Source: Paraburkholderia flava (lineage in GTDB: Bacteria; Pseudomonadota; Gammaproteobacteria; Burkholderiales; Burkholderiaceae). From it: 64,000 nt of DNA. The stretch is from contig NZ_SMRO01000002.1 of assembly GCF_004359985.1 (NCBI RefSeq), forward strand, positions 2,184,536 through 2,248,535, written 5' to 3'. A program made the position numbers and the translations under genes. The notes beneath the pieces were generated by a model. That model made no database searches and was not told the origin of the DNA. It saw nothing but the letters and a program-made list of their open reading frames with translations. Positions 23,224 through 40,173 of this stretch are shown piece after piece (the first letter of the stretch is position 1; every line of letters starts with the position of its first letter).

Positions 23224-23224
23224 G

Positions 23225-23572
23225 TCAGTTCGACGGCGACAAACCGCTTCCGCTGCTGTTGCCACTACCTTGATTCACTGCCGAGCCATACAGATCCGGA
23301 ATCTTCGATTTGAACGATTCGATGTAGCGGTGATAGGCAAGTCCCGCCTCGTCGCCGAGCATCGGTTGCGCGGGCGATGCACTGGTCCGCTGCAGTTCGA
23401 GCCACCCCTTCGTCGCGTGGCCGATTTCGCTGGCATTCACTGGTCTGTCGGTCCGCACAACCGGTTGCGCATCGGTCTGCGCGTGAGCCGGCACAGCCGC
23501 AACTGCGCAAACCAACGTCACCGACGCGGCAACCGTGGCAAACGCGAATCCCTTCATTCTGTTGTTGTCCAT
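23225..23572 (-). CDS. DUF3613-type exported protein of the Tad locus
   Basis: A 115-residue protein, MDNNRMKGFAFATVAASVTL then VCAVAAVPAHAQ (signal cleavage near residue 32). The short mature part has ASEIGHATKGWLELQRTSAS and AGLAYHRYIESF, typical of DUF3613 proteins found in Tad clusters. GGGGGA before the second ATG (23572) decides the start over 23584. It fits between the TPR lipoprotein and tadG and is likely an accessory periplasmic factor. Confidence 0.72.
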   Translation of the reverse strand: MDNNRMKGFAFATVAASVTLVCAVAAVPAHAQTDAQPVVRTDRPVNASEIGHATKGWLELQRTSASPAQPMLGDEAGLAYHRYIESFKSKIPDLYGSAVNQGSGNSSGSGLSPSN

Positions 23573-23599
23573 CTCATCCCCCATTACTTCATCGGTCCG

Positions 23600-24451: not shown

Positions 24452-24461
24452 CGTTGTTTCC

Positions 24462-25484
24462 TTACTTGTGCATCGACTTCAGCGCGTGCGTCACCGACAG
24501 CACGCCCGGCCCCGCCGTAATAATCAACAGCGCGGGCAGTAGCGTCAGGATCATCACGCCGGTCATCTTCACGGTCAGTCGACCGATGCGTTCACGCAGC
24601 ATCGCGCGCCTTGCCTCGCGCAAGCGGTCACCGAACTGCTTGAGCGGCTCCTGTACTGCGCCGCCGTGACGGTCCACTTGAATCAACAGTCGCACGATCG
24701 CGCGCAGGTCTTCGTTGTCATAGCTCGACGCCAACCGGTTCAGTGATTGTTCGCGCGTGCGGCCGGCCGCCAACTGCCGCTGAGCGATCTCGAGCTCGCT
24801 CGACAGGATCGGCAGCACTCCGCGAAAATCGCCGACTATCACCTGCAAGCTCTGATCGATCGACAACCCAACACCCTGCAGCAAACGCAGCAGGTCGACC
24901 AGCATCGGCAACTCGTCGACAACTGCGCGGCGGCGCCCGCCCGCGCGTTGCCGGATATACAGCTTCGGCGCCATGAAGCCGATCACGAGCGCGACGATCA
25001 GATACAACACGTAGCGCGGCCCGTCGACGTACACATGTGCGAACAGCCCGATCAGCACAGGCAATGCGATCGCGCACGCGATCCGTGCGATCAGGAAAAG
25101 CCCGCGCGTACGCGTGTCGACAAAACCGCATTGCTCGAGCAGCCGCCGGTCCTCGTCGGCGACGATCTGCCGCCCGAATGGTGTGTCCAGCCATCTCATG
25201 CCCGCATGGCCGAGGCGTTCAAACGTGCCGGCAAAACGCTGGGCCACCGTCTTGCCCGACGCCGGGTGACCGCCCTGGCCCGCTTGTGCCGCGGATTCCG
25301 CCGCGCCGGTCTGTGCACCGAGCGAGGCTGCGTGCACGACACGTCGGTCGAGGGCATGTGCGAGCGTGCGATCGCTACGCCGCTCCGCAGACAGCCGAAC
25401 GATCAACAACGCACCGAAGATCAGCAGCCCGAGCGCAAGCAGCGCGAGTGCAATGGCGGCAAGGTGGCGCGGTTCCATCGTCAT
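24462..25484 (-). CDS. tadC: TadC inner-membrane platform protein
   Basis: A 340-residue T2SSF/GspF-domain protein. An N-terminal TM helix (LAAIALALLALGLLIFGALL) is followed by helices at RIACAIALPVLIGLFAHV and YVLYLIVALVIGFMAPKLYI, a cytoplasmic helical domain with ELPMLVDLLRLLQGVGLSI and LLIQVDRHGGAVQEPL, and C-terminal TMs ending LTLLPALLIITAGPG. With TadB it forms the platform driven by the TadA ATPase. The start at 25484 overlaps the tadB stop as ATGA; a frame extension to 25580 is rejected. Confidence 0.9.
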   Translation of the reverse strand: MTMEPRHLAAIALALLALGLLIFGALLIVRLSAERRSDRTLAHALDRRVVHAASLGAQTGAAESAAQAGQGGHPASGKTVAQRFAGTFERLGHAGMRWLDTPFGRQIVADEDRRLLEQCGFVDTRTRGLFLIARIACAIALPVLIGLFAHVYVDGPRYVLYLIVALVIGFMAPKLYIRQRAGGRRRAVVDELPMLVDLLRLLQGVGLSIDQSLQVIVGDFRGVLPILSSELEIAQRQLAAGRTREQSLNRLASSYDNEDLRAIVRLLIQVDRHGGAVQEPLKQFGDRLREARRAMLRERIGRLTVKMTGVMILTLLPALLIITAGPGVLSVTHALKSMHK

Positions 25485-26503
25485 TTGCGCAACCTCGCGA
25501 GCCGGTACAGCAGCCATGCACCGAATGCCTGCAGGCCGACCGCCAGATACACCAGTTGCCGCCCCTCCGGGTCGTACCACATCGCACCGAAATACGCAGG
25601 GTTCGTCAGGATCAGGAAGCCGCCGATTCCGATCGGCAGCATCGCAAGCACAAACGACGACATCTTGGTCTCAGCGGTCATCGCGGTCAGCTCGCGCTCG
25701 GCCTGCTCGAGGTCGCGCATGAACGACGACATCCGGTCGAGCATCACGTCCGCGCGTCCGCCGTATTTCACCGACAGGCGCAGCACCGCGCCGATCAGCT
25801 CGAGCTCGCTCGCCCGATAGATCTGCGCGACGTGGTACAGCGCGCGATCGATCTCGACGCCGGTACGCAGCATCCGCGACACGTGGTCGAGACATTCGCG
25901 CAGTGGCGCTTCCGTGGTCTGCAGTGACGCCTGGAACGCCGCAGGCACGCTGTTGCCGAGCACGATCAGCCGCACAATGCCGTCGAGAAACAACGGCAAC
26001 TGACGCACGATCTGCTGGCGCCGTTTCGTCGTGCGCCAGGAGATTACGAAATAGAACACGAAGCCGCATACGGCAAGCATCATGCAGATAGCGAGCGCGC
26101 CGCCCGTCTGTCCTGCCCACACGCACAGGGCCAGCGTGACGAGCAACGCGAGCAGCGCCGGTATGCGTGCATGCGAGATGCCCGCGCGGCTCATCATGGT
26201 ATCGAACGCGAACATCGCGCGCGCGGTGAAATGGCGCCACTTGGCCTGCCACGGTGAATCGGCATCGGGTGCCTGCGGCGGCGTGAGCCCTGCGACGCCC
26301 GAATTTCGCGCCGCGCCCGGCGCAACAGCAGCCGGACGCGCCAGGCCCGCCACCCCCTGCTGCGCAGTCGCCATCCGGCTATCGATAAACCGCTCAGTCG
26401 TCACCTGCCCCTTGCGTTGCTCGCCCCGCCGCAAAACCAGCAGCGCACCCGCCGCGCACAACAGCGCGAGCGCGGCAAAGAGCAACGCGGCGACACTAGA
26501 CAT
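25481..26503 (-). CDS. tadB: TadB inner-membrane platform protein
   Basis: A 340-residue GspF-domain protein paired with TadC. It has an N-terminal TM ([20 protein letters not shown]), a Pro/Ala linker, a pair of TMs (LLALLVTLALCVWAG, ICMMLAVCGFVFYFVISW), a cytoplasmic T2SSF domain (RQLPLFLDGIVRLIVLGNSV, LSVKYGGRADVMLDRMSSFM) and C-terminal TMs. The ATG at 26503 overlaps the end of tadA by 8 bp; the open-frame ATG at 26560 lies well inside tadA and is rejected. Partner: TadA ATPase. Confidence 0.9.
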   Translation of the reverse strand: MSSVAALLFAALALLCAAGALLVLRRGEQRKGQVTTERFIDSRMATAQQGVAGLARPAAVAPGAARNSGVAGLTPPQAPDADSPWQAKWRHFTARAMFAFDTMMSRAGISHARIPALLALLVTLALCVWAGQTGGALAICMMLAVCGFVFYFVISWRTTKRRQQIVRQLPLFLDGIVRLIVLGNSVPAAFQASLQTTEAPLRECLDHVSRMLRTGVEIDRALYHVAQIYRASELELIGAVLRLSVKYGGRADVMLDRMSSFMRDLEQAERELTAMTAETKMSSFVLAMLPIGIGGFLILTNPAYFGAMWYDPEGRQLVYLAVGLQAFGAWLLYRLARLRK

Positions 26504-27848
26504 TGAAGCCTCCGCCGAACCCACCGCCAAAACCACCACCGCCAGCACCACTCTGTCCACCGCCCAACGCCTGACGGAAGCGCGCCAGCTTCGGCGAATG
26601 CGGATGGATGCCGAGCGATTCCCACTTGTCGATCTCTTCGCCGTCCTGCGTGGTCACCGGCTCATAGCGATACAGCTCCTGAGTCGCGATGATGTTGTCG
26701 GACAGACCCGTCACTTCGGTCACGGACAGAATACGGCGCCGGCCATTCGACAACCGCCCGATCTGCACGATGAAGTCGATCGCGTTCGCGATCTGCCGAC
26801 GCAAGCTCGACTCGGTGCCCTGAAAGCCCGCGAAGCCCGCAAGCATTTCGAGCCGGTACAGACATTCGCGCGGCGAACTCGCGTGCACCGTGCCCATCGA
26901 CCCATCGTGACCGGTGTTCATCGCCTGCAGCATTTCAAGCACTTCACCACCGCGCACTTCGCCGACGATGATGCGGTCCGGCCGCATCCGCAGCGTGTTG
27001 CGCAAAAGATCGCGGATCGACACGACACCGGTGCCGTCGAAACCACCTGGCCGGCTCTCGAGCCGCACGACGTGCGGGTGATTCAGCGACAGCTCGGCGG
27101 TATCTTCGATCGTGACGACGCGCTCGACTTCAGGAATGTGAAACGCAAGCGCATTGAGCAGCGACGTCTTGCCCGAACTCGTCCCACCCGACACGAGCAC
27201 GTTGCAGCGTGCCTGTACCGCGGCTTCGAGCAGCGCGCCGATCTCGGGGTTGTAGGTGCCGTTACCGAGCAGGTCGTCTGGCCGCAGCGGATCTTTGCGG
27301 AACTTCCGGATCGATACGATCGGTCCGTCGATCGACAGCGGTTCGATCACGACGTTGACACGTCCGCCGTCCGGCAGCCGCGCGTCGACCATCGGGTTCG
27401 ATTCGTCGAGCCGCCGGCCGATCGGTGCAAGGATGCGTCGCACGATCCGCAGCAGGTGCGCGTTGTCGGCGAAGCGCACCTGGATCTTCGCGAGGATGCC
27501 GTGACGCGACACGTACACGTCGTTGTAGCCGTTGACGAGAATGTCCTCGACAGCAGGATCGTTCAGCAGATCCTCAATCGGACCGAAGCCCGCGAGCTCC
27601 TTCGTCAACGCCTCGGCGATCAACCGCACTTCGCTCTCGTTGATCGGAATCCGGCGCAGCCTCACGAAGCTGTCCATTTCCAGGTCGACGAACTGGTTGA
27701 TCGCGCTGCGCGACCAGCGGCCGAACTCCGCGCCAAGTTCCTCGATACGCGTGAGCAGATGTTCGTGCGCCGCGTTCTTGATGTCCTGGAACTGCTGGCT
27801 ATGCGCGAATGCAGGCGCGTCGTCGGCAAATTCGATATCTTTTGCCAT
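26496..27848 (-). CDS. tadA: TadA/CpaF pilus assembly ATPase
   Basis: A 450-residue type II/IV secretion hexameric ATPase. The N-terminal domain carries [20 protein letters not shown]; Walker A is [15 protein letters not shown] (about 219-232), with an Asp box TIEDTAEL, Walker [15 protein letters not shown] and the His box [14 protein letters not shown]. It powers Flp extension (and probably retraction) from the cytoplasm. The C-terminus is a Gly-rich run ([14 protein letters not shown]), unusual for the family. It starts 3 bp after the tadZ stop. Confidence 0.95.
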
Positions 27849-27851
27849 CGT

Positions 27852-29093
27852 CTATGACCGCTTTGGTGAGGTTGGAATGAAACGCCTGAGCGCGTCGAGC
27901 GCAGCCCGGCTACGCGAGGACGCCGCGGCCTGCGCCGCGCCGCCCAGCCGTTCGACGAGCGGCTCCAGCGCGCGGATGTACGGATCGCGCGCGGCCGCGT
28001 CGGCCAGCAATTGCCCCTGGTTCGCCGCCTGCCCGAGTGCGACGCGCCGCTCGGGCAGCATCGCGAGCAGCGGCACTTCGAGCCGCTGCACGATCTGCGC
28101 GGCCGTCAGACTGAATTCCGGTTCGTACTTGTTGACGATGAGCCGGACGTTGTCCATCTCGATCGATTCTTCACGCAGCCCGTCGAGCACCGCCGCCGCC
28201 GATACGATCGACGCAACGCCCTGGTCGCAGACCAGCCACGTTTCGTCGGCGGCCTTCACGACCTGCGCGATGAACTCGTTGTTAGTAAACCCGCCGAGGT
28301 CGACGATCTGCTGATCGAAGAATGCACGCAGCCGGTTCAGCAGACTCACCGACGCGGAGTACGACACCTCGCGCATATCGGCGAGATTCGGCGGCAGCGT
28401 CGTCAACGCGAGCCCGCTCGCGTGCCGCGACAGCGCGGTGTGCACGAACGTCTGATCGAAGCGACGCAGATTGCGCACAGCCTCGACAAAACTGAACTCG
28501 CTGCGCGTATTCAGCAGCAGCGTGCCGTCGCCTTGCGGCAACCCGAGATCGAGCAGCGCGGCCTGACGGCCTTGCGGCGCATCGCGTCTTTGCAGCAGCA
28601 CCGCGAGATTCGCGGCGAGCGTGCTCACGCCCATGCCGACGCGGGCACCGAGCAGCGCGACGATGCGACCGTGACGGCTCACTGGCTCGACGAGGTTATC
28701 GATCGCCTGACGCGTGATGCGCAGCGCGTCTTCAGCCGGTGCGGACAGATCGATGAAATCGCGCACGCCGGCGCGCAGCGCAGCGAGCGCACTCTCCGGC
28801 TCGGTGAGCGAACCGACCGCGACGATCTGCATGCCCGGATAGGCTGTACGCGCCGCGCTTGCGGCGACACTTGCGGCGGCCGCACGGCCGCCCGAAAAGT
28901 CGATGAACACCACCGACGGATTCAGCGACGCGATCCGCTGCGTGAGCTGCGCGGGATCGAGCGTCGCCGCCTCGACGGCGCCGACCGCGACGAGCGTTCC
29001 CGCGAGCCAACGCACGTGCTCGTCCGCAAGCGAGGCGAACACGAAATAGTCGGTGATCGCGCGTTCAGTCAACGAATACGTTCTCGCGTTCAT
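27852..29093 (-). CDS. tadZ: TadZ/CpaE localisation protein (atypical ParA-like ATPase)
   Basis: A 413-residue protein with an N-terminal atypical receiver-like domain (1-130) and a MinD/ParA-like domain. The deviant Walker A reads GARVGMGVSTLAANLAV, in which the signature Lys is missing, as in several TadZ proteins. The switch region is LLDLGLPQGDGTLLLN. TadZ localises the pilus machine at the pole. GGAGGAAG before MNARTYS fixes the start; a frame extension to 29135 is rejected. Confidence 0.88.
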   Translation of the reverse strand: MNARTYSLTERAITDYFVFASLADEHVRWLAGTLVAVGAVEAATLDPAQLTQRIASLNPSVVFIDFSGGRAAAASVAASAARTAYPGMQIVAVGSLTEPESALAALRAGVRDFIDLSAPAEDALRITRQAIDNLVEPVSRHGRIVALLGARVGMGVSTLAANLAVLLQRRDAPQGRQAALLDLGLPQGDGTLLLNTRSEFSFVEAVRNLRRFDQTFVHTALSRHASGLALTTLPPNLADMREVSYSASVSLLNRLRAFFDQQIVDLGGFTNNEFIAQVVKAADETWLVCDQGVASIVSAAAVLDGLREESIEMDNVRLIVNKYEPEFSLTAAQIVQRLEVPLLAMLPERRVALGQAANQGQLLADAAARDPYIRALEPLVERLGGAAQAAASSRSRAALDALRRFIPTSPKRS

Positions 29094-29210
29094 GTTGAAC
29101 TTCCTCCGGCGGCAAAGGTTGCGTTGCCACCACATCGCCGAACGGGCTGCGCGCCGGTATGGCGGCGTAGCTCGTTCGAATCTGCTTCTGTTGCCATTGC
29201 TTGTGCGGCT

Positions 29211-30650
29211 TCATTTTGAAAATCCTGGCGCGGGGTCGCTCGAAAACACGCCACCAATGACTGAACCCCACACGTGTCCGTTGCGCTGTTCGCTCTGCTC
29301 GCCGGGTGTCGTCGGCAACGCAGCGCCCTTCGCGATCGGCGACACCAGATGCGGCGTCACGATGATCACGAGTTCCTTGTCGTTCTGCGAGTAGCTCAGT
29401 TGTTTGAAGAACGCCCCGATGATCGGCAGATCGCCTAGCAACGGCACCTTGTTCACGCTCGATACCGTCTCGCGATCGATCAAGCCACCGATCAGGAAAC
29501 TCTCGCCGTCGCCGAGTTCGACGGTGGTGTCGGTACGGCGCGTTGTGAGTGCCGGCACGGTGACGCCGTTGATCGTCACTGCGTTCGTGAAGTCGAGCTG
29601 GCTCGCTTCGGGCGCGATCTTCAGCGCGATGCGCTGCGGGCTCAACACGGTGGGCGTCAACGTCAGACCGACGCCGTATGGTTTGAACTGGATCGACGTC
29701 GTGCCGAGTCCTTGCGGCACCGGAATCGGAATCTCGCCACCCGCGAGGAAACTCGCGCTCTGCCCGGACAACGCGACAAGCGTCGGTTCCGCAAGCACCC
29801 GTGCAAGATTGTTACCTTCCATCAGACTCAGGTCCGCCGAGATGCCGTGCGTCGCCGAATTGAATACAAGGTTGAACGCGGAAGCGATCGGCGCCGTCGA
29901 CTGGAACTGCGGCTGCGCGCCGAACGTCGCGGAAGTCAGCGACGACGGCGAAAACGAACCAAACGTGAAGCCCCCGCTGCTCTTCAGGATATTCAGGCCG
30001 AGCTGCTTCAACACCTGACGGCTGAATTCCACGACGCGGACGTCGACCTGAACGACCGAACGCGTAGCGACGGTCGACGTGTCGTAGATCGTGCTGTTGT
30101 CGCCACCGCCACTTGCGCCCCCCGATCCACCGGAGTCTCCGCCCGACTTGCCGCCTGACGAACCCGCATCCTTGCCGCCCTTTAACGATGCACGCTGAGC
30201 TGCTTCGATCTGCGCAACCGCGACTGCACGCTGATGCTGCTCCATCGACGATGCCGAACCGGAGATCAATGCGGAATCGCCAAGCATCTTGACGTTCGGC
30301 GCACCAGGACCGAGCAGCGTACGCGATGCAGCAGTTACGACATTCACGGTGTACGCGAGCGGCGTATCAGTGCCGCGCTCCCACAGCATCAGGTTCGTGG
30401 TGCCCGGCGACTTGCCGATCAGCAGGACACCGCCCGCCTTGTCGCCCTTGATGATCAGCACGTCGGCGACGGTCGGATCGCCGATCGCGATACGACGCAG
30501 CGTGTGGCCGCTCGCGATCACCTGTTGGGAACCGACGACGATGTCGAGCGCCTGTGGCATGCCCGCGGCCTCGCCCGTCGAGCTGACGACGAACGATGCC
30601 GCTACCCACAGTGCCACCAACGCGACGTACTCGGAAATCCGTTTTCTCAT
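29211..30650 (-). CDS. rcpA: RcpA/CpaC outer-membrane secretin of the Tad system
   Basis: A 479-residue secretin. It has a signal peptide (VALVALWVAASFVVSSTGEA), an N-terminal secretin/BON-like domain (LDIVVGSQQVIASGHTLRRI, KAGGVLLIGKSPGTTNLMLW), a Gly/Ser/Lys-rich linker (residues about 155-190) and a C-terminal secretin domain with VPQGLGTTSIQFKPYGVGL and FLIGGLIDRETVSSVNKVPL, LLGDLPIIGAFFKQ. It forms the pore for the Flp pilus. An in-frame GTG at 30677 is possible, but it abuts its Shine-Dalgarno; I prefer ATG 30650. Confidence 0.9.
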   Translation of the reverse strand: MRKRISEYVALVALWVAASFVVSSTGEAAGMPQALDIVVGSQQVIASGHTLRRIAIGDPTVADVLIIKGDKAGGVLLIGKSPGTTNLMLWERGTDTPLAYTVNVVTAASRTLLGPGAPNVKMLGDSALISGSASSMEQHQRAVAVAQIEAAQRASLKGGKDAGSSGGKSGGDSGGSGGASGGGDNSTIYDTSTVATRSVVQVDVRVVEFSRQVLKQLGLNILKSSGGFTFGSFSPSSLTSATFGAQPQFQSTAPIASAFNLVFNSATHGISADLSLMEGNNLARVLAEPTLVALSGQSASFLAGGEIPIPVPQGLGTTSIQFKPYGVGLTLTPTVLSPQRIALKIAPEASQLDFTNAVTINGVTVPALTTRRTDTTVELGDGESFLIGGLIDRETVSSVNKVPLLGDLPIIGAFFKQLSYSQNDKELVIIVTPHLVSPIAKGAALPTTPGEQSEQRNGHVWGSVIGGVFSSDPAPGFSK

Positions 30651-30689
30651 GTTCTTGTAATGGCGTGTAACCGCCACTCCCTGAAGCTT

Positions 30690-31637
30690 CTATTGAGCGA
30701 CCGTCTCGGAACGCCCACCCCGTATCACTTCGATTCCTCCTCCCGAACGCGCGGCCCGCACGACCGGTGCCGCGACGTGCGTCGGAGCGACGGGCGTACG
30801 CGCATTGCCGGGTCCGCCTGCCAGCGAGTCGAGTGCGATGCCCGCGGCTGCGCGCGTGGAGTCGGTCGCTGTGCTGCCCAGACTCCCTCCTGCCTTGTCG
30901 CCGGGTGCGTGTATCGCGGTCTTGATCACCTCTGGTAGCGGTGGGAATGCGTTGGCATCGATTACATCGTCATCACGCGGATTACGTAATGCGAGCACGA
31001 GATGTCCTGACGCTTCGGCAAGTGTCACACGGTCGACGTCGGCGACCGGCATTGCAAGCACCGCCGTACGCACGAGGCCATTCGGATCGCCAGCACTATC
31101 GTTGCCGGCAGTCGCGTTGCCGAATGCGAGCACGCGCACCTTCGAGATCAGCAGACGTGCCTGGGTCTGCCCAATCTCGCCGGTACCCGCCATCGCGTTA
31201 TCGCGCTTCAATGTGAAGAACACATCGACGAGATTGCCAGGCCGCAGCCGGTTGCCGACCGCGTTGCCATCGTCGACACGCACAGCGAGCGCGCGTTCGC
31301 CGGGCTGGATCTGCTCTGCCATCCCCGACGACAGTTGGGCTTCGAGCACCGGCGAATCGGCACCGATGTCACCGGAGGGAATCCGTCCGACGAGTAGCGT
31401 CGGGTCCGTGAATGCGCCACCGGGATTGATTGGCAGCGACTGCACGCGCAGATCCTCCGCCGTGATCGGCTTACCGGCCGTTAGCGGATGCGCGGCGACG
31501 ACGACGGAATAGCTTGCCTGCGCCGTGGTCGCAGCAGGCGTAGGCGCCGGCTTGCGCGACAGCATCCACGCGAAGATGCCAAGCAGCAATGCCAGCAGGA
31601 TCAATACGCCTGCGAGGATCCGGGTCAGTTTCGGCAT
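30690..31637 (-). CDS. rcpC: RcpC/CpaB Flp pilus assembly protein
   Basis: A 315-residue periplasmic protein anchored by one N-terminal helix (ILAGVLILLALLLGIFAWML). The SAF/CpaB domain spans about residues 40-110 (VVVAAHPLTAGKPITAEDL), followed by the RcpC C-terminal region (RLRPGNLVDVFFTLKR, LVRTAVLAMPVADVDRVTLA). It is thought to link TadV-processed pilus parts to the secretin. ATG 31637 is preferred over a GTG at 31649. The C-terminal tail from about 240 is Ala/Gly/Thr-rich. Confidence 0.88.
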   Translation of the reverse strand: MPKLTRILAGVLILLALLLGIFAWMLSRKPAPTPAATTAQASYSVVVAAHPLTAGKPITAEDLRVQSLPINPGGAFTDPTLLVGRIPSGDIGADSPVLEAQLSSGMAEQIQPGERALAVRVDDGNAVGNRLRPGNLVDVFFTLKRDNAMAGTGEIGQTQARLLISKVRVLAFGNATAGNDSAGDPNGLVRTAVLAMPVADVDRVTLAEASGHLVLALRNPRDDDVIDANAFPPLPEVIKTAIHAPGDKAGGSLGSTATDSTRAAAGIALDSLAGGPGNARTPVAPTHVAAPVVRAARSGGGIEVIRGGRSETVAQ

Positions 31638-31728
31638 GATGGCCCGCACGATGAAGAGGCCCGCGCCGGCCGGCCGGTCGGCCGACGCGAACGAAGTAAC
31701 AACGGACAGCGGAAGGCGTGCGCGTTGG

Positions 31729-32223
31729 TCACAGTAGGGTCACAGGGTTGAGTTGAACAGTCGCGGTGCTAGTCAACGTGTTGGGGAGCACCAGATTAAA
31801 TAGCGGCAAGGTCGGCACGAGCGGATGGGTCGCGTAGTTGTAGGTCAGCGTGACCGTGATGCATTGCATCGTCGCGTCGAATGAACAGGCAGTCGGCGTC
31901 GGCGTGCAGGTCGAGTTGCCAATCAGCCCTGTGATCATATTGGTCGCAGTCGTGCATGCCGCCGCCGCACGCAGACCGACCGCCGCGGCTACAGTGGTTG
32001 CCTTCTGATAGTTCAGCGCGGCACGCGCACCCTCTTCGCTCGCAAGCGTCAGGTTCTGCTGCGCGACGAAGATCAGGCTGTAAGTGACGATCGCGTATAA
32101 CACTGTGAAGAACAGTGGAAACACCAGCGCGAATTCGACAGCCGTCGCGCCGCGTTGCGTGCGCCCGGAGACACCGCACTGCTGCGAGCGATGACGCGAG
32201 TGGCACATCGCGGCGTCTTTCAT
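31729..32223 (-). CDS. tadE: TadE-like pseudopilin
   Basis: A 164-residue protein with a positively charged leader and the TadE motif RGATAVEFALVFPLFFTVLY, followed by VTYSLIFVAQQNLTLASEEG. The Glu at +5 of the putative leader-peptidase site (G-A-T-A-V-E-F) is retained, so TadV could process it. The periplasmic part is Thr/Ala/Asn-rich with four Cys. GGAGGAGG six bases before the ATG gives the start at 32223, which overlaps the tadV stop by one base (TGATG). Confidence 0.85.
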   Translation of the reverse strand: MKDAAMCHSRHRSQQCGVSGRTQRGATAVEFALVFPLFFTVLYAIVTYSLIFVAQQNLTLASEEGARAALNYQKATTVAAAVGLRAAAACTTATNMITGLIGNSTCTPTPTACSFDATMQCITVTLTYNYATHPLVPTLPLFNLVLPNTLTSTATVQLNPVTLL

Positions 32224-32720
32224 CAAACACCTCCTCCGCTCGCGCGGATCGCAAGTAACGCGATCGCCGGTACGGACAGACATGCGGCGTAGGGTGTCGA
32301 GCGATGGCCTGCCACTTGGAACGTGCGCGCGCCCTGCTGTACCAGTGACGAGACGCGTGTACGCGTAATCACGAGCAGTGCGATCGCATGCACCGCCGCG
32401 ATCAGGCTCGCGACAATCCACAGCGTGAGCAATGCGTGAATGCCGCACCACGCACCAAGCACCGCAAAGACCTTGACGTCCGCGCCACCCATTACACCAA
32501 GCATGTAGAACGGCAGCAACGCGGCGAGACCGACGATCATGCCAGTCACTGCCTGCATTGGCGTAAGACCGAACGGACCGTGAAATAGAAATGCGCTCGC
32601 GAGCGCGGCAACGAGGCCGGCGGCGACGAGCGTGTTCGATACACGCCGGCTGCGACAGTCGCTAACCGCGACCGCCATCACCCAGGCAACGAACAGAAAG
32701 TTGCTGATTGAGGCACTCAT
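32223..32720 (-). CDS. tadV: TadV/CpaA prepilin peptidase
   Basis: A 165-residue polytopic aspartyl protease of the A24 type. The first catalytic Asp is D21 in VSDCRSRRVSN. The second is D81 in MLGVMGGADVKV, where the usual GxGD reads GGAD (Gly before Asp replaced by Ala). Five or six hydrophobic helices alternate with short loops. It cleaves the Flp and TadE-type leader peptides at the cytoplasmic membrane face. It lies between flp and tadE. Confidence 0.9.
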   Translation of the reverse strand: MSASISNFLFVAWVMAVAVSDCRSRRVSNTLVAAGLVAALASAFLFHGPFGLTPMQAVTGMIVGLAALLPFYMLGVMGGADVKVFAVLGAWCGIHALLTLWIVASLIAAVHAIALLVITRTRVSSLVQQGARTFQVAGHRSTPYAACLSVPAIALLAIRASGGGV

Positions 32721-32845: not shown

Positions 32846-33034
32846 TTAGCTGCCGCCGCCTGCCGAAGTGGGGGTGAGGGCGTTGACGATACTGCTGAAC
32901 GTGGTGGAGAGTGCCTTTTCCACACCGCTGATCGACGACACGAGAACGACAGCGATCAACCCCGCGAGGAGGCCGTATTCGATGGCCGTAACCCCGTTGT
33001 TATCTCTCAGGAACGTAGTGATGAACTTTTTCAT
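32846..33034 (-). CDS. flp: Flp-family type IVb major pilin
   Basis: A 62-residue prepilin. After the leader MKKFITTFLRDNNG (cleavage G14/V15) comes VTAIEYGLLAGLIAVVLVSS, with Glu at mature +5 (E19) and Tyr20, the Flp signature. The short C-terminus ends Gly-rich (PTSAGGGS). Assembled by the TadABC machine into thin adhesive bundled pili. GAGGG lies before the ATG. It is the first gene of the Tad operon, with a long upstream region. Confidence 0.95.
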   Translation of the reverse strand: MKKFITTFLRDNNGVTAIEYGLLAGLIAVVLVSSISGVEKALSTTFSSIVNALTPTSAGGGS

Positions 33035-33415: not shown

Positions 33416-33461
33416 CGTTACGCGGCACTTCGTAACGCCGCACGCGGCCCGTTACGTTACG
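33416..33461. repeat. CGTTACG repeat cluster, candidate activator-binding sites
   Basis: CGTTACG at 33416-33422, CGTAACG (its complement) at 33431-33437, and two overlapping CGTTACG at 33450-33456 and 33455-33461. The extended forms CGTAACGCCGC (33431) and CGTTACGCCGC (33455) are direct repeats 24 bp apart. The cluster ends about 140 bp before the sigma-54 -24 element, a normal distance for an enhancer. Repeats are seen; the binding protein is inferred. Confidence 0.6.
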
Positions 33462-33602
33462 CCGCCTCCGCACACGCGTTCCGAATGCCGTTTTCGACGC
33501 TTCAGTTGCTTTAGCAAACACTCCACTGATTCCCCGCAAATGCACGCCCTGATTCGCCTGGCGGGTCGCGCAATGTAATTGCATGTCGACGGCCGAATGA
33601 AA

Positions 33603-33618
33603 TGGCACGGCTGTTGCA
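33603..33618 (+). promoter_or_regulatory. Consensus sigma-54 promoter
   Basis: TGGCACGGCTGTTGCA matches the -24/-12 consensus TGGCACG-N4-TTGC(A/T) at every defined position, with correct GG/GC spacing. Transcription would begin near 33630, about 40 bp before the ATG of the first repeat lipoprotein. The nearest sigma-54 activator gene is at 20040-21431 in the Tad cluster. Confidence 0.88.
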
Positions 33619-33667
33619 GAGAAAGGTGCGCGGTACCACCCAACTACACATGCGATGCGAGGGCGAC

Positions 33668-35380
33668 ATGAACATTCAAACGACTTATAACGGGTTCCGG
33701 ATAACGATCATTGCGGCCGCAGCTGCAGCGATGCTTTCTCTCAGCGCCTGCGGCGGCTCGGGCACGATCAGCCAGGGCACAGGCGGCAACGGCAGTGGTA
33801 GCGGTTCCGACGGCGGCACGCTCACGACGGGCGGCAACGGCACGGGTTCCGGCGCGACCGCAGGCAACGGCGGCGGCTCGGGCAGCGGAACGGGAACCGG
33901 CACTGGAACGGGTACAGGTGGTACCGGCGGCACGGGAACAGGCACGGGCACCACACCGGTTGCGAACGCAATCGGTACGGTGGTCGGCAACACAGGTAAC
34001 GTCGTCACGGATGTCGGCTCGACGGTGTCGGGCATCGGCAGCGTGATCGCTTCGCAGAATCTTCCGATCGTCAGTTCGGCAACCACGCAGGCCGCAGGCG
34101 GTGTCGTGCAGAGCGTTGGCTCCGCTGTGTCGACGCTCGGCAACGGCGTCGCGCAAGGTCTCGGACAACTCGGCACAGGTGGCAACGCGGTGGGCACGAC
34201 GGTGTCGAGCCTCGGCGGTGTCGTCAGCAATCTCGGCGGTGCGGTGTCGAAGACCGGCGATCTCGTCACGAGCCTCGGCAGCGGCCCGCTCGCTCCGCTC
34301 TCCGCATTGACCACGCCGCTCGGTGGCGTCGTCAACACACTCGGCGGTGCAGTGACGAACGCCGGCGGCACGCTTACCAATGTGCTGTCGACGGGTCCGG
34401 TGCAACAGATCACGTCGACGGTCAGCTCGGCCATCACGCCGATCACGTCGATGGTCGCGTCGACGACGCAGACCGTCGGCACCGTGACGGGTCTCGGCGC
34501 TCCGCTCAACGGTCTGCTCGGCACGATCGGCGGCGGCCTCGGCACGGCCGGCAAGCTGCTCGCATCGACGGGCGGCAATCCGGTCACGACGGGCCTCGGC
34601 AACGTCGTCACCGACACCGGCAAGATCGTCTCGTCGGCCGGCGGTCTGCTCGTCGGCGGTACTGCGGGATCGAATCCGCTTGCGCCGATCACCGGCATCC
34701 TCGGTGGCCTTGGCGGTCTGGGCGAAGGCACCAGCAGCGGCAGCGGCCCGCTCGCTCCGATCACCGGTCTGCTCGGTGGACTCACAGGCGGTTCCAGCAG
34801 CGGTAGCCCGCTCTCTCCGATTACAGGTCTTCTCGGTGGTCTCACCGGCGGCTCCAGTAGCGGCAACCCGCTCTCCCCGATCACCGGTCTTCTCGGTGGC
34901 CTCACTGGTGGCTCCAGCAGCGGCAACCCGCTCTCGCCAGTCACGGGTCTGCTCGGTGGCTTGACCGGCGGTAGCGGCAACAGCGGTGGTCCGCTCGCCC
35001 CGGTCACCGGCCTGCTCTCTGGCGTCACGGGTGCCTTGAGCGGTGTTGCAGGCGGCACGTCGGGTAGCGCGGGTGGTCCGCTCGGCCCGGTCACGGGTCT
35101 GCTCTCCGGCGTCACCGGTGCACTGAGTGGCGTTGCAGGCGGTACGTCGGGTAGCTCGGGCGGTCCGCTCGGTCCGGTGAGCGGTCTGCTGTCGGCGGTG
35201 ACGGGTGCACTCGGCGGTGTCGCGGCAACAGCCGCACCGGCCGCGACTGCATCGACGAACACCGTGGCATCGACCGGCATCTCCGCAACGAGCGGCAGCG
35301 GCGGCAGCTCGTCGAACCTGCTGGCTCCGGTGACGTCGCTCGTCGGCGGTCTGCTCGGCGCGCTCGGAGGCAAGAAGTAA
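33668..35380 (+). CDS. Gly/Leu-repeat surface lipoprotein 1
   Basis: A 570-residue lipoprotein. The signal ITIIAAAAAAMLSLSACGG ends in lipobox LSAC, with Gly at +2, so outer-membrane sorting is expected. A Gly/Ser/Thr linker (about 30-98) follows, then a region of Val/Gly/Thr/Leu repeats (VGNTGNVVTDVGSTVSGIGS) and C-terminal units like NPLSPITGLLGGLTGGSSSG. It is not collagen: there is no Gly-X-Y periodicity, although the label collagen-like is easily applied automatically. GAGGG before the ATG and a sigma-54 promoter about 50 bp upstream mark it as first gene of a three-gene set. Its paralogue is next door. The function is unknown; an adhesin or matrix role is inferred. Confidence 0.85.
   Translation: MNIQTTYNGFRITIIAAAAAAMLSLSACGGSGTISQGTGGNGSGSGSDGGTLTTGGNGTGSGATAGNGGGSGSGTGTGTGTGTGGTGGTGTGTGTTPVANAIGTVVGNTGNVVTDVGSTVSGIGSVIASQNLPIVSSATTQAAGGVVQSVGSAVSTLGNGVAQGLGQLGTGGNAVGTTVSSLGGVVSNLGGAVSKTGDLVTSLGSGPLAPLSALTTPLGGVVNTLGGAVTNAGGTLTNVLSTGPVQQITSTVSSAITPITSMVASTTQTVGTVTGLGAPLNGLLGTIGGGLGTAGKLLASTGGNPVTTGLGNVVTDTGKIVSSAGGLLVGGTAGSNPLAPITGILGGLGGLGEGTSSGSGPLAPITGLLGGLTGGSSSGSPLSPITGLLGGLTGGSSSGNPLSPITGLLGGLTGGSSSGNPLSPVTGLLGGLTGGSGNSGGPLAPVTGLLSGVTGALSGVAGGTSGSAGGPLGPVTGLLSGVTGALSGVAGGTSGSSGGPLGPVSGLLSAVTGALGGVAATAAPAATASTNTVASTGISATSGSGGSSSNLLAPVTSLVGGLLGALGGKK
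34741..34980 (+). repeat. Four tandem 60-bp coding repeats
   Basis: Units at 34741, 34801, 34861 and 34921 keep exact 60-bp register and encode the 20-residue unit PLSPITGLLGGLTGGSSSGN. Adjacent units differ at only a few bases, often synonymous, so copy number could change by slippage or recombination without breaking the frame. Confidence 0.9.
34985..35245 (+). repeat. Three tandem 87-bp coding repeats
   Basis: Units start at 34985, 35072 and 35159 and encode 29 residues each (GGPLGPVTGLLSGVTGALSG plus VAGGTSGSS). The third has diverged at its end. They follow the 60-bp units and share the PVTGLL core. Confidence 0.85.
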
Positions 35381-35522
35381 CGCCGGTCATCACAGGTACA
35401 GCCGGGATGCAGCGCGCCACGCCCGGCTGACCCGCACAAAGCACCGCGGTTCAAGGTGCACAGCGCAACGGCGCGCGGAGACCTTCCATCATTACGCCAG
35501 AAAACAGAAAGTGAGGAGCACC

Positions 35523-37049
35523 ATGTCCAACCAACGGCTCTCTATCTCTCACGCGGCTCGCGTGACGCTTGCATCGCTGCGTCTGCCGCTCAGCGCCATC
35601 GCGGTGGCATGCGTGCTCGCCGCGTGCGGCGGCAGCAGTGTCAACGCACCGCCCAGCGCGGGTGGCGGCAACACGACACCCCCGCCGAACAACGGCGGCG
35701 GCACCACGCCGGTCACGAACACAGGAACCGCCGGTGTCGTCACGACAGCAGCGAAGACGGTCAACGATCTCGGCAGCACGATCGGTTCGATCGCGATCCC
35801 GGGTCTCAGCCCGCAGGTCACGCAAGGGCTCGGCAACAGCGTGTCGGCCACGAGCAACACGCTGACGTCGCTCGCGAACACGGTCAGCAGCGGGCTCGGT
35901 CAGATCGGCACGACGGCGAATCCGGTCGGCACGACGGTCGCGGGACTCGGCTCGGTCGTCAGCACGACGTCGGGTGTCGTGCAGGGTCTCAGCACCACCG
36001 TCGCCGGACTCGGCACCGGCACGCTCGCGCCGCTGTCGCCGGTCACGACGCCGGTCGCCGGCCTGCTCAGCACGGTCGCGAACGGTGTCAACGCAGGCGG
36101 CACGACGCTCGGCAACGTGCTCGGCTCGGCACCGATCCAGCAGATCACGCAACCGATCAGCACCGCGATCACACCGATCGTGCAAACGGCCGGCCTGATC
36201 ACGCAGACGGTCGGCACGCAGACGGGTCTCGGTGCACCAGTCGGCGGTCTGCTCGCGCAGATCGGCGGCGCGGTGAAGTCGGCGGGTACGACGATCGGCG
36301 GCACGACGAACAACGTGCTCGGCGCGGACGTCGGCAACCTCGTCGGCTCGCTCGGCAACACGATCACCAACGCAGGCGGCCTCGTCAATCCGAATGGGCC
36401 GAACGGCGCTGCGCCGATCCCCGGTCTGATCACGAGCCTGCTCGGCAGCACGAGCGTGAGCGTCGCGAACGGTCCGCCGTCGAATAGCAATCCGTTGAGC
36501 CCGCTGCAAGGCGCGCTCGCGAGCCTCGGACTCGGCACCAACCCGCTCGGCTCGGTGACGTCGCTGCTCGGCGGCACGTCGGGCAGCAATCCGCTGAGCC
36601 CGGTCACGTCGTTGCTGGGTGGTCTGACGGGCGGTCTGTCGTCGAGCACCGGCGGCAGCAATCCGCTGGGTTCGATCACGTCGCTGCTCGGCGGCGCAAC
36701 GTCGGGTTCCGGCGGCAATCTGCTGAGCCCATTGACGTCGCTGCTGGGTGGTGTAACGTCGGGTGCGGGTGGCGGCAATCTGTTGAGCCCGGTGACCTCG
36801 TTGCTCGGCGGCGTAACGTCGGGCACGGGCACAGGTAGCAGCGGCTCGAACCCGCTCGGCGCTGTGACGGGTCTGCTGGGTGGTGTGACTGGTGGTTCGT
36901 CGGGTGGCTCGGCGGCAGGCGGTCTGCTGGCACCGATCACCGGCCTGGTAGGTGGGCTGACCGGCGCACTCGGCTCGGCAACGGGCTCGGGCACGACGAC
37001 TGGCGGTGGCTCGCTTCTGGGTGGTCTGCTTCCCGTAGCACACAAGTAA
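35523..37049 (+). CDS. Gly/Leu-repeat surface lipoprotein 2 (paralogue)
   Basis: A 508-residue lipoprotein; the signal ends AIAVACVLAACGGSS, lipobox LAAC, Gly at +2. A Pro/Asn/Gly linker is followed by a central region clearly homologous to lipoprotein 1: both contain TLAPLS or PLAPLS then TTP, both PIQQIT or PVQQIT then AITPI, and both TQTVGT then TGLGAP. C-terminal repeats read NPLSPVTSLLGGLTGG and NLLSPLTSLLGGVTSG. GAGGAG five bases before the ATG sets the start. It sits 142 bp after lipoprotein 1 and is probably co-transcribed. The pair arose by tandem duplication. Confidence 0.85.
   Translation: MSNQRLSISHAARVTLASLRLPLSAIAVACVLAACGGSSVNAPPSAGGGNTTPPPNNGGGTTPVTNTGTAGVVTTAAKTVNDLGSTIGSIAIPGLSPQVTQGLGNSVSATSNTLTSLANTVSSGLGQIGTTANPVGTTVAGLGSVVSTTSGVVQGLSTTVAGLGTGTLAPLSPVTTPVAGLLSTVANGVNAGGTTLGNVLGSAPIQQITQPISTAITPIVQTAGLITQTVGTQTGLGAPVGGLLAQIGGAVKSAGTTIGGTTNNVLGADVGNLVGSLGNTITNAGGLVNPNGPNGAAPIPGLITSLLGSTSVSVANGPPSNSNPLSPLQGALASLGLGTNPLGSVTSLLGGTSGSNPLSPVTSLLGGLTGGLSSSTGGSNPLGSITSLLGGATSGSGGNLLSPLTSLLGGVTSGAGGGNLLSPVTSLLGGVTSGTGTGSSGSNPLGAVTGLLGGVTGGSSGGSAAGGLLAPITGLVGGLTGALGSATGSGTTTGGGSLLGGLLPVAHK
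36486..36915 (+). repeat. Degenerate tandem repeats in lipoprotein 2
   Basis: About seven units of 16-24 residues share the core (N/L)PLSP(V/L)TSLLGG(V/L)TSG. Spacing is less regular than in lipoprotein 1, suggesting older divergence. Confidence 0.75.
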
Positions 37050-37068
37050 ATCGACAGAACCTGAGAGG

Positions 37069-37106
37069 ACGCCGCGTGCTCTATCGCTTCCCGGAGTACG
37101 CGGCGT
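37069..37106 (+). other. Inverted repeat before the TpsB-like gene
   Basis: ACGCCGCGT at 37069-37077 and ACGCGGCGT at 37098-37106, a perfect 9-bp dyad with a 20-base loop, between lipoprotein 2 and the pore gene. No T-run follows directly; perhaps a partial attenuator. Confidence 0.45.
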
Positions 37107-37211
37107 ATTTGCGTTGCCATGCACTACGAATCGATCGACAGATAAACGTTCGCGATCCAGCCGCAGAGACGGCATACTCGCATCACAAGAACGGCCAACG
37201 AGGGAAATCCG

Positions 37212-38912
37212 ATGAAACTCGGGTATAAAAAATGGACGCTGCTGTTCGCAGCAGTCGCCGCGGGGGCGGCGCATGCACAAAGCAGGCCGGCATTGACCGG
37301 CAACCCGGCGGGCGGCAATCCGATGGATTCGCTGCCGCAGATCAAGGCGCCGGACAAAGGACCCAGCGTGACCGTGCAGGTGCAGTCGCAACCACCGCAA
37401 CTGCAGGAATTGCTCGCTCGTCATCTGACGCCCACGAAGATCCAGATCGAGGGCGTGAAATCGATTTCCTTCGACGATGTCGCGAAGCGCTTCACGTCGC
37501 TCGTCGGCAAGGACATCACAATCGCGGAGCTGATCGAAGTCGCGAACGGCGTGACGAAGATGTATCAGGACCACGGCTACGCGCTGTCGTTCGCGTTCAT
37601 TCCGGCACAGACTTTCGATGACGGCGTCGTGCGCGTGACGATCGTCGAAGGCTATGTGTCGCTCGTCAAGATCACCGGCAAGCCGGGCGCGACCGAAGAC
37701 CGCATCCGCGCGTTCGCCGCGCATATCCAGGACGACCGGCCGCTGCATCGCGCGACGTTCGAACGCTATATCCAGGCGCTCGGTTTGCTGCCCGGCGTAA
37801 AGGTCGCGGCGAACGTGCCGCCGCCGACGACCACCGACGGTGCAACGACGCTCGAGCTGAACGTCACGCGCAAACCGTTCGACGTCGGCATGGGTCTCGA
37901 CTTCAATCACCCCGGCGTGCAGGGTCTGCTGACCGCGACTGAAAACGGTCTCACGTCGCTCGGCGAACAGTTGAGCGTGTCCGCGCTGCTGCCGAAGGGT
38001 CGTGACAACCAAACCTATCTCGCGGTGCATGGCGCGGTGCCGATCGGCAGCAACGGTCTGATCGCGAAGGTCGACGCGACGCACTATCGCGGCAATCCGG
38101 TCGACAACCCGGGCCTGCCCTCGTACGTACAACGCACGGTGGTCAACGATAAGGTCAGCGGTTCGCTTGCGTATCCGGTGATCCTCAGCAACTCGCAGAC
38201 GTTGATCGGCACGGCAAGCGCGTATGCATCGCGCGACCAGGACAGCTACAACAACCAGATCAACGGTCTGAACTTCGGCTTGCGATCGCAGGTACGCGTG
38301 CTGCAACTGCAGGCCGATTACGCGAACGTGCAGACGGGCCAGGTGCGCAAGGCGAGCTTGAATGTCGCAAAAGCATTCGACGTGCTCGGCGCGTCGAAGT
38401 CGTTCGACAGCAACATTCCTGGTCTCGCCGGCCAGAATCCGATCTCGCTGAATTTCGTGCGTACCGGTGCGAGTTTTTCGCAGAGCAACGAATGGCCGCT
38501 CAAGATCGGCACCGTCGTGTCGTTGATCGGTCAGTACAGCCCGAACTCGCTGCCGACCTCCGAACAGATCGCGTTCGGCGCGCAACGTTTCGCGCAGGGT
38601 TACGAGCCGGGCGAGGCATCGGGCGATTCGGGCTGGGGCGCATCGTTCGAAGTGAACCGGCCGATCGCGATCGGCTACACGTACCTGCAAACGTTCACAC
38701 CGTATGTGTCGTTCGACATGGCGCGCGTCTATCTGCACTCCGGCACACCGTCGCCGTCGAAACTCTCGTCGGTGTCGCTCGGTTTTCGGGTGACCGATGC
38801 GAAGTACTACAGCCTGGATCTGTCGGTGGCCAAACCGATCGCCGACGCGCCGGTCGAAAGCGCGTCGCGCAGCCCGCGTATCAACGCGGCGTTTTCCTAT
38901 CAGTTGAACTAA
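37212..38912 (+). CDS. TpsB/FhaC-like two-partner outer-membrane transporter
   Basis: A 566-residue outer-membrane protein: signal peptide (WTLLFAAVAAGAAHA, cleavage near 22), a linker, POTRA-type domain (about 75-155; DITIAELIEVANGVTKMYQD, FIPAQTFDDGVVRVTIVEGY), then a beta-barrel of alternating aromatic strands. At the loop-6 position where ShlB/FhaC proteins have VRGY/F, this has A461-Q462-G463-Y464 in RFAQGYEPGEASGDSGWG, so the invariant Arg is Gln. No filamentous-haemagglutinin-like TpsA gene lies nearby; the two repeat lipoproteins are the natural candidate clients. It is 162 bp after lipoprotein 2. Confidence 0.85.
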   Translation: MKLGYKKWTLLFAAVAAGAAHAQSRPALTGNPAGGNPMDSLPQIKAPDKGPSVTVQVQSQPPQLQELLARHLTPTKIQIEGVKSISFDDVAKRFTSLVGKDITIAELIEVANGVTKMYQDHGYALSFAFIPAQTFDDGVVRVTIVEGYVSLVKITGKPGATEDRIRAFAAHIQDDRPLHRATFERYIQALGLLPGVKVAANVPPPTTTDGATTLELNVTRKPFDVGMGLDFNHPGVQGLLTATENGLTSLGEQLSVSALLPKGRDNQTYLAVHGAVPIGSNGLIAKVDATHYRGNPVDNPGLPSYVQRTVVNDKVSGSLAYPVILSNSQTLIGTASAYASRDQDSYNNQINGLNFGLRSQVRVLQLQADYANVQTGQVRKASLNVAKAFDVLGASKSFDSNIPGLAGQNPISLNFVRTGASFSQSNEWPLKIGTVVSLIGQYSPNSLPTSEQIAFGAQRFAQGYEPGEASGDSGWGASFEVNRPIAIGYTYLQTFTPYVSFDMARVYLHSGTPSPSKLSSVSLGFRVTDAKYYSLDLSVAKPIADAPVESASRSPRINAAFSYQLN

Positions 38913-39105: not shown

Positions 39106-39591
39106 ATGACGCATTTCACCCAGCGCGCCCGTTCGATGGTGCTCGGCACCGCAAAACACGCCGCGGTAGCGGGCGCCCTGCTCGTCTGCGCGGTCGCTGC
39201 GATGGCACAGACCGATACCCCCGTCGGCACGTGGCAAACCATCGACGACAACACCCATCAGCCGAAAGCACTCGTGCAGATCACGCAGGACGCGGACGGC
39301 TCGCTGTCCGGCAAGGTGATCAAGGGCCTGGGCCCGAACGATCAACCCGATCGCCGCTGCACCGCCTGCACCGACGCGCGCAAGGACCAGCTGATTCTCG
39401 GCATGACGATCATCAACGGGATGAAGAAGGACGGCGACGGCTGGGACAACGGCCAGATCCTCGACCCGGAAAACGGCAAACTCTACAAGTGCAAGATGCA
39501 CCTCGACGAAAATGGCCAGAAGCTGGTCGTGCGCGGGTATATCGGCATCTCGCTGCTCGGCCGTTCGCAGACGTGGAATCGCCAGCAGTAG
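39106..39591 (+). CDS. DUF2147 exported protein
   Basis: A 161-residue protein with a Sec signal (AAVAGALLVCAVAAMAQ, cleavage near 35) and a DUF2147 beta-barrel-like domain: VGTWQTIDDNTHQPKALVQI, LSGKVIKGLG, DRRCTACTDARK, GWDNGQILDPENGKLYKCKM, VVRGYIGISLLGRSQTW. These are usually periplasmic or secreted; the function is unknown. CGGAGGAAG at 39095-39103 fixes the start; an upstream ATG at 39037 in the same frame is not needed. Confidence 0.88.
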   Translation: MTHFTQRARSMVLGTAKHAAVAGALLVCAVAAMAQTDTPVGTWQTIDDNTHQPKALVQITQDADGSLSGKVIKGLGPNDQPDRRCTACTDARKDQLILGMTIINGMKKDGDGWDNGQILDPENGKLYKCKMHLDENGQKLVVRGYIGISLLGRSQTWNRQQ

Positions 39592-39708: not shown

Positions 39709-40173
39709 TCACATCGTCGGTAACGCGGTCACTAAAGGTAGCGGTGCCGGTAAGGACGCGGGCACTACGATAGCCGGTACGGATAACGAAAGAGCCGGCA
39801 CATTACGCGCTTCGATGTCACTGCCCGATTGCACACCTGTCGCATCTTTACGCGGAACACGCCGCCGCGTGCGCGCGCTCACCGTATGCAGCAACCCATG
39901 GCTCGCGACGCCGAACAGCGTCTCCAGTACCCGCTGCAGCACGCCCGATTGCAACCACAGCTTGAAGCGCCGATGACACGTCTGGTACGGCGGATACCGG
40001 CGCGGCATCGACGACCACGTCGCGCTGCTATAGATCACCCACAGCACGCCGTTGAGCACCGAGCGCGTATTCGCGAGCGGCCTGCCACGCATGTCACGTC
40101 TCGGCCGCAGTTCGGGAATCAGCGGGGCCACGCGCAGCCATTCTTCGTCGGTCATATCTCGATGCGGACTCAT
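39709..40173 (-). CDS. Isolated DUF4096 (IS5-type) transposase N-terminal protein
   Basis: A 154-residue protein. Residues 1-95 match the N-terminal DNA-binding part of IS4/IS5-type transposases (MTDEEWLRVAPLIPELRP, GRPLANTRSVLNGVLWVI, RYPPYQTCHRRFKLWLQSG, LQRVLETLF). The remaining 60 residues are Pro/Ala/Val-rich and show no DDE catalytic residues. AAAGGAG six bases upstream suggests it is translated. I found no terminal inverted repeats or target duplication, so it is a decayed or domesticated fragment rather than an active insertion sequence. Confidence 0.7.
   Translation of the reverse strand: MSPHRDMTDEEWLRVAPLIPELRPRRDMRGRPLANTRSVLNGVLWVIYSSATWSSMPRRYPPYQTCHRRFKLWLQSGVLQRVLETLFGVASHGLLHTVSARTRRRVPRKDATGVQSGSDIEARNVPALSLSVPAIVVPASLPAPLPLVTALPTM

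Follow-up and report, generated by a model that had tools for sequence, protein, structure and literature searches.

Within a stretch of 64,000 nucleotides from Paraburkholderia flava (contig NZ_SMRO01000002.1, positions 2,184,536 to 2,248,535; hereafter the window), genes for two lipoproteins, A and B, each with a Pfam Collagen_mid domain, are followed by the gene for an outer-membrane pore of the TpsB type. Across the genomes surveyed, pore and Collagen_mid lipoproteins are paired and are retained together even when unlinked. The pores occupy a single branch, the two-partner secretion (TPS) domain partner is missing, the lipoproteins have a lipobox, and sigma-54 sites, conserved though not universal, go with an activator in the neighbouring Tad locus. 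The most economical explanation, and one that the sequence comparisons make reasonably probable, is that the pore exports Collagen_mid lipoproteins through the outer membrane, as a lipoprotein-exporting variant of two-partner secretion. Export itself, the surface position of the lipoproteins and their recognition by the POTRA domains are what we infer from these observations. What is new here is the link between the pore and Collagen_mid, as the lipoproteins themselves are already known as Bcc collagen-like proteins (Bcc-CLPs). Few machines dedicated to moving lipoproteins to the outer face of the outer membrane are known, and how these proteins get there is, to our knowledge, an open question. 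The core of the locus is laid out as follows.

33603 to 33618, + strand: sigma-54 (-24/-12) promoter-like site TGGCACGGCTGTTGCA, an exact pattern match
33668 to 35380, + strand: lipoprotein A, 570 residues, with LSAC lipobox signal, Gly/Thr/Ser linker, Collagen_mid domain and repeat tail
34061 to 34654, + strand: Collagen_mid domain of lipoprotein A, residues 132-329, a predicted helical bundle
34747 to 35220, + strand: C-terminal tandem repeats of lipoprotein A, in units of 60 and 87 bases
35523 to 37049, + strand: lipoprotein B, 508 residues, the paralogue of A, with the likely lipobox LAAC (Cys35)
35796 to 36389, + strand: Collagen_mid domain of lipoprotein B, residues 92-289
37212 to 38912, + strand: TpsB-type outer-membrane pore, 566 residues, with POTRA domains and a beta barrel (Pfam, AlphaFold, structure search)

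Pairing was followed in three samples of 150 (family), 300 (order) and 299 (phylum) genomes, which share genomes and whose members are not independent of their relatives. In the family sample, Collagen_mid is over its cut-off in 78 genomes and the pore is present at E<=1e-60 in 79. An initial annotation of the window had left open that homologous lipoproteins might occur mostly without the pore, and none does: all 78 Collagen_mid genomes carry it, and 71 of the 150 have neither. Only G402 has the pore without a Collagen_mid match, and there a stop interrupts the pore frame. Among the 15 genomes listed for the genus of the window, eight have both and seven have neither. The same holds more widely, with a pore of at least 353 bits in 10/10 order-sample genomes over the Collagen_mid cut-off and of at least 423 bits in 12/12 from the phylum sample, including five genomes of one family (f54) from another order. 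One order-sample genome (G057) has a sub-threshold Collagen_mid match and no such pore, and four more have no Pfam match but do carry a pore (246-366 bits), below which the best-scoring pore-like protein reaches 121 bits. Sub-threshold Collagen_mid occurs in five phylum genomes, and of these G606 alone matches the pore model, with the match on a separate contig. Another 18 genomes contain only pores that are more distantly related, at 150-236 bits (E<=1e-40).

Collagen_mid lies within 5 kb of the pore in 36 of 46 fetched pore stretches, and in Cupriavidus metallidurans CH34, an environmental laboratory strain, the pore, two lipoproteins and Tad genes stand together. The remaining ten comprise one pore at a contig edge, four with a divergent repeat lipoprotein nearby and five from genus g5 with the pore apart. 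The divergent partners, found in the four extra order-sample genomes, are lipobox proteins with repeats rich in Gly, Ser, Thr, Leu, Val and Pro. Such a protein is encoded directly upstream of the pore in L095 and L096 (family f25), and on the opposite strand about 2.4 kb from the pore in L098 (f41). L097 (f25) has two lipobox genes, one behind a sigma-54-like site, and a non-lipobox repeat protein directly 5' of the pore. None of the five g5 pore stretches (L172, L174, L176, L177, L179) has Collagen_mid within 5 kb. In G358 and G432, the two in which the lipoprotein location was read among 13 g5 genomes listed with both genes, the lipoproteins stay beside Tad (L175, L178) and the pore is elsewhere. 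Both are thus kept though unlinked, which argues against mere hitch-hiking. The g5 pore in L174 (7311-10623) is preceded by two genes, one encoding a small lipoprotein; we take the two products to resemble a phosphosugar isomerase and a small lipoprotein of the BON/DolP type. A single open reading frame joining lipoprotein and pore in Ca. Burkholderia verschuerenii (P0001; L078 8642-11326; an 888-residue record named PE_PGRS) was rejected as evidence of fusion. The frame stops at 11326 and the pore match reaches 11422, so that genome erosion is likelier.

Strict co-retention and a lipid anchor would be explained equally well if the lipoproteins were periplasm-facing subunits of the pore, like the Bam lipoproteins of BamA, and the pore acted on other cargo or in outer-membrane assembly; BamB is indeed a lipoprotein partner of BamA (PMC4104836). 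We consider this unlikely, as the family genomes contain one to five Collagen_mid matches each, several of them far from the pore, the repeat tails are long, variable and of very different lengths, and one ortholog has an aggregation phenotype (PMC10303873).

The pore itself matches Pfam POTRA_2 (E 7e-19, 67.9 bits) and ShlB (E 1.3e-11, 45 bits), both over cut-off; NCBIfam gives weak BamA matches only. Pfam detects one POTRA domain, and the AlphaFold model (mean predicted local distance difference test score, pLDDT, 79; residues 1-61 below 50) shows a second POTRA-like unit. The closest solved structures to the model are CdiB (6wim, E 1.3e-25) and FhaC (4ql0). The barrel strand count of 16 is approximate because DSSP lists 17 strand segments of at least six residues from residue 223 on. 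The initial description of two paralogous lipoproteins followed by a TpsB-type pore is thereby confirmed by Pfam, lipobox and the 45% identity of A and B. When 45 pores were placed in a maximum-likelihood tree, a branch with 100/100 support separated the 21 that are linked to lipoproteins (the clade) from the 24 other TpsBs. The tree tool warns of long branches, most of all for the two other ShlB pores of the window's own genome, which are encoded on a different contig. The tree skips L057, L058, L059 and L065, where translation from the match start gives fewer than 350 residues, and covers pores other than those of L062, L063 and g5; G637 is represented by its C18 pore, not C42. An NP-x-D-x-LP motif near the mature N-terminus is common to many clade pores (in the window at 37317-37337, pore residues 36-42) and absent from the other TpsBs aligned; the f54 pores and that of G155 deviate from it.

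The claim that the pore has no TPS partner at its locus was borne out. Neither lipoprotein has a TPS domain, and no TPS-domain gene lies near the window pore or, in a search of 30 genomes (14 with outside pores used in the tree and 16 of the clade), near the pore in any of the 16 clade genomes, the nearest on the same contig being about 190 kb away. A TPS-domain gene adjoins eight of the 14 outside pores (G501, G515, G470, G522, G203, G499, G480, G616), with adjacency in the last three judged from open-frame length. None is beside the outside pores of G544 (on a 5.6-kb contig), G546, G583, G615, G015 and G637; in G015 and G637 other pores do adjoin such a gene. The pores of G546, G583 and G615 (L165, L166, L168) form another TpsB-like group without an adjoining TPS-domain gene and may be a second TPS-free branch.

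These data also bear on whether the pore could be a TpsB of the ordinary kind, serving a TPS-domain or a heme-binding protein whose gene is unlinked, with the lipoproteins as unrelated passengers. The initial annotation had raised a TPS-domain protein encoded elsewhere as a point to check. The window's own genome does have two TPS-domain proteins, at least one is present in 12 of the 16 other clade genomes, and the B. cenocepacia protein BCAL1522 is annotated "heme utilization-related" (PMC10224339). However, the two genes in the own genome are on the contig of its other ShlB pores, one directly beside a pore and the other about 22 kb from the third pore, and four of the 16 clade genomes (G177, G220, G192, G118) have no TPS-domain match anywhere. 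Together with co-retention in the absence of linkage, this makes an ordinary TpsB very improbable.

Turning to the candidate cargo, Collagen_mid (PF15984, cut-off 31.1) is matched nearly end to end (positions 1-197/198) by lipoprotein A (E 7e-65, 219 bits) and lipoprotein B (E 2e-59, 201.2 bits); neither has a match in NCBIfam. Both have a lipobox, with Cys28 (LSAC) in A. Lipobox calls were made by pattern. Among 69 Collagen_mid domains that score at least 30 bits and do not overlap, 63 are preceded by an in-frame lipobox signal, the six misses being three broken frames (L079, L082, L085), one that runs off the stretch (L100) and two unexplained (L106, L173). Across a 42-row alignment, with rows picked for starts before a lipobox, the Cys is invariant. 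In 39 of 41 parsed rows it is followed by Gly, Ser or Ala, and in none by Asp; for two of the 41, including lipoprotein B with its likely anchor at Cys35, parsing had begun from a Cys nearer the N-terminus. Between the Cys and the first predicted helix, the 41 rows have a linker with a median of 73 residues, mostly Gly/Ser/Thr or Thr/Pro; two of the values behind that median, those of L093 and L094, are meaningless since the domain model is laid over the signal there. In a further lipoprotein of the window's own genome, encoded away from the pore (L104 8948-11026), a Thr-Pro linker some 238 residues long separates the Cys from the first predicted helix.

Charged residues are scarce in the domain region (6/230 in A, 4/230 in B) and hydrophobic residues in the domain repeat with a period of 3.5. 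AlphaFold models residues 101-328 of lipoprotein A as a helical bundle, with block means of 74-95 for pLDDT over residues 101-330; the tail is of low confidence, mostly below 50, and the mean for the protein is 63. The fibres that had been suggested for the repeats are not supported by this model, and we rejected repeats forming beta fibres or collagen on the basis of the helical prediction and the low tail pLDDT. A Foldseek comparison of the model with the PDB gave no match at E<=0.001, and the best hit of a PDB sequence search had E 0.034. Antisense open reading frames over the lipoproteins that score with the domain profile were taken as a composition effect, and Acinetobacter matches from protein searches (9-19% query coverage, no Pfam domain) as low-complexity.

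The set had been proposed to begin at a consensus sigma-54 promoter, and the site at 33603-33618 matches TGGCACGN4TTGCW exactly. It begins 65 bases upstream of the lipoprotein A start at 33668, which we prefer over the ATG at 33602 because the latter overlaps the promoter. The site is the only one in the window at up to one mismatch, but as 0.89 are expected at that tolerance the lone site proves little, and it is conservation upstream of homologues that carries weight. Counting 39 lipoprotein genes of 34 loci (leaving out L067, L073, L079, L082, L085, L095 and L180), sites that agree with the consensus at 11 or more of its 12 bases occur within 300 bases upstream of 17, versus 0 of 453 other gene starts, the latter taken from an open-reading-frame caller written for the analysis. 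At 10/12, the numbers are 24 of 39 versus 9 of 453. Random 330-base windows contain a site in 0.5% (11/12) and 2.1% (10/12) of cases. For lipoprotein genes away from the pore, the counts are 0/8 and 5/8 at the two levels. A Collagen_mid lipoprotein gene away from the pore in G264 (L107 8105-10585) is adjoined by its own relative of the sigma-54 activator of the Tad locus. In the window this activator is encoded at the far end of the Tad locus, on the other strand from the lipoproteins and the pore:

32846 to 33034, - strand: Flp pilin, with which the divergent Tad locus begins, named from sequence and place
21442 to 32720, - strand: Tad locus with TadV/CpaA, TadE, CpaB, RcpA, TadZ, TadA, TadB, TadC, TPR protein and TadG
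20040 to 21431, - strand: sigma-54-dependent activator with which the Tad locus ends (PF00158 E 1.4e-63, HTH_8)

As initially described, the set faces away from these genes, which run on the minus strand from the Flp pilin at 33034 down to the activator at 20040. Six open reading frames of the Tad locus have Pfam matches (TadV, TadE, TadA, TadC, TPR protein, TadG) and RcpA has a PF13629 match at its position. The small protein at 32846-33034 we take to be the Flp pilin from its sequence and position, and CpaB, TadZ and TadB are presumed names; the gene order is conserved in other loci. The Flp pilin has no nearby sigma-54 site (best 7/12). Of 11 further Tad loci that were read, 10 likewise end with the activator. 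The exception comes from f54, in keeping with the lack of sigma-54 sites at the f54 lipoprotein genes. Sites and activator together lend strong support to sigma-54 control of the set, and the Tad-locus activator likely acts on the 33603 site.

The pore and lipoproteins might instead be accessories of the Tad machine that, for example, hold Flp pili at the outer membrane or coat them there. At least two Tad proteins are encoded in 27 of the 46 pore stretches, some of which are short, with Tad genes in several orientations, either divergent from the pore or on its strand. An RcpA ortholog is present in 78 of the 150 family genomes and in 76 of the 79 with a pore, and Flp and lipoprotein genes (BCAL1520, 1523 and 1524) are induced together (PMC7970998). 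On the other hand, RcpA orthologs occur without the pore in G304 and G327, and the pore without an RcpA ortholog at that threshold in G425, G355 and G402. No Tad match was found in the stretches of f25, three f54 genomes and the g5 pores. In the seven genomes of the window's genus that lack the pore, RcpA orthologs are found in none and some RcpA-type domain in five. The co-occurrence with Tad genes put forward initially is therefore real but not obligatory, G155 having a clade pore and a repeat lipoprotein and no RcpA-type domain match, and we think it quite unlikely that the set merely serves the Tad machine.

On the far side of the pore, the next gene is the following.

39106 to 39591, + strand: DUF2147 protein (Pfam)

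This gene is a neighbour in only part of the family and was rejected as a core part of the system, as f7, f33, f4, f54 and the named Caballeronia stretches show no match next to the pore. A minus-strand open frame of 1095 codons (35451-38738) beneath lipoprotein B and the pore is taken as a composition effect, and a minus-strand frame at 39709-40173 presumably represents a piece of an IS5-type transposase. The B. cenocepacia operon is also flanked by a transposase gene, bcal1519 (PMC10224339).

Although the initial annotation presented the set as a candidate undescribed system, Collagen_mid lipoproteins have been published as adhesin candidates of B. cenocepacia, the Bcc-CLPs BCAL1523, BCAL1524, BCAL2397, BCAM0695 and BCAM1598 (PMC10224339). 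The order in strain J2315 is BCAL1524, 1523 (Bcc-CLP), 1522 (outer membrane) and 1520 (putative lipoprotein), beside the flp operon, and from gene order and length we infer that BCAL1522, for which "heme utilization-related" is the only annotation given, is the ortholog of the pore. In the available parts of that paper a possible operon is noted, pore and lipoproteins are not connected, and the terms "ShlB" and "two-partner" are absent (PMC10224339). Likewise, no lipoprotein TpsA partner or pore-CLP link was found among the matches listed in the open-licence PubMed Central literature. For the ortholog BCAL1524, presence in outer-membrane vesicles has been described, as has lower autoaggregation when the gene is deleted (PMC10303873).

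If the pore does export the lipoproteins, the pathway could run as follows. The lipoprotein would travel via Lol to the outer membrane, with the flexible Gly/Ser/Thr linker keeping its body free, and part of the Collagen_mid domain would be bound by the POTRA domains. The polypeptide would then thread through the barrel and be retained outside as its helical bundle folds. The lipoproteins would remain lipid-anchored with their repeat-bearing bodies outward, the lipid either staying in the inner leaflet with the linker passing through the barrel or being moved to the outer leaflet. In most genomes a single pore would handle one to several lipoproteins in trans. Expression would occur when sigma-54 and the Tad-locus activator are active, and the exposed lipoproteins might promote cell-cell aggregation and adhesion alongside Flp pili.

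Several observations weigh against export, of which a missing Arg in the pore and the helical cargo are the main puzzles. The Arg of the L6 RGY/F motif carries weight for TpsB pores, and 3njt is an FhaC structure in which it is changed to Ala (R450A). In the window pore the residue is Gln462. The Arg is missing in 13 of 21 clade pores versus 2 of 24 others (present in 8 and 22, respectively), which could mean that the channel operates in another way. The passengers of known two-partner systems often fold as beta helices (PMC5422565), unlike the helical model obtained here. The presence of BCAL1524 in vesicles is no proof of surface exposure. Six of the 14 outside pores are also without a TPS neighbour, and that absence alone is therefore not special. 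Fifteen of the 39 lipoprotein genes have no sigma-54 site even at 10/12, including all five f54 loci, and the f25 and f41 partners, which have no Pfam match, were called by lipobox and composition alone. Finally, Fisher test values for the co-occurrence overstate independence because the species share ancestry.

Should export nevertheless be correct, a TpsB branch in seven families and at least two orders would be a dedicated, unrecognised machine for lipoprotein display. It would account for the exit of published collagen-like adhesin lipoproteins and extend two-partner secretion to lipidated, TPS-free, helical cargo. A more specific proposal, to which we give an even chance, is a lipid-anchored branch of type V secretion in which an Omp85-superfamily pore recognises helical Collagen_mid and displays scattered lipoproteins in trans, with helical folding outside as the pull. 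This would be a second, independent solution to the problem solved by SLAM.

How the set compares with known systems can be summarised from the pore outwards. With two-partner secretion (type Vb; FhaC/FHA, CdiB/CdiA) it shares a POTRA/ShlB barrel pore and a partner gene beside the pore in most loci. It differs in having as partner a lipoprotein whose domain is predicted to be helical and which lacks a TPS domain, in usually pairing one pore with several partners, and in not keeping the L6 Arg in the window pore. Because a TPS-domain partner was looked for and not found with the pore, we do not file the set as a member of that system. The Bcc collagen-like proteins share with lipoproteins A and B the PF15984 domain, the lipid anchor and low-complexity flanks. 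Collagen-like proteins with a Gly-X-Y triple helix, in contrast, have only the annotation name in common with them, given the 3.5-residue period and helical model found here. With SLAM the likeness lies in the proposed outcome, in which an outer-membrane protein dedicated to the task brings lipoproteins to the cell surface. SLAM is made up of a TPR part plus a barrel, whereas here the display would be the work of a POTRA/ShlB protein with an FhaC/CdiB-like fold.

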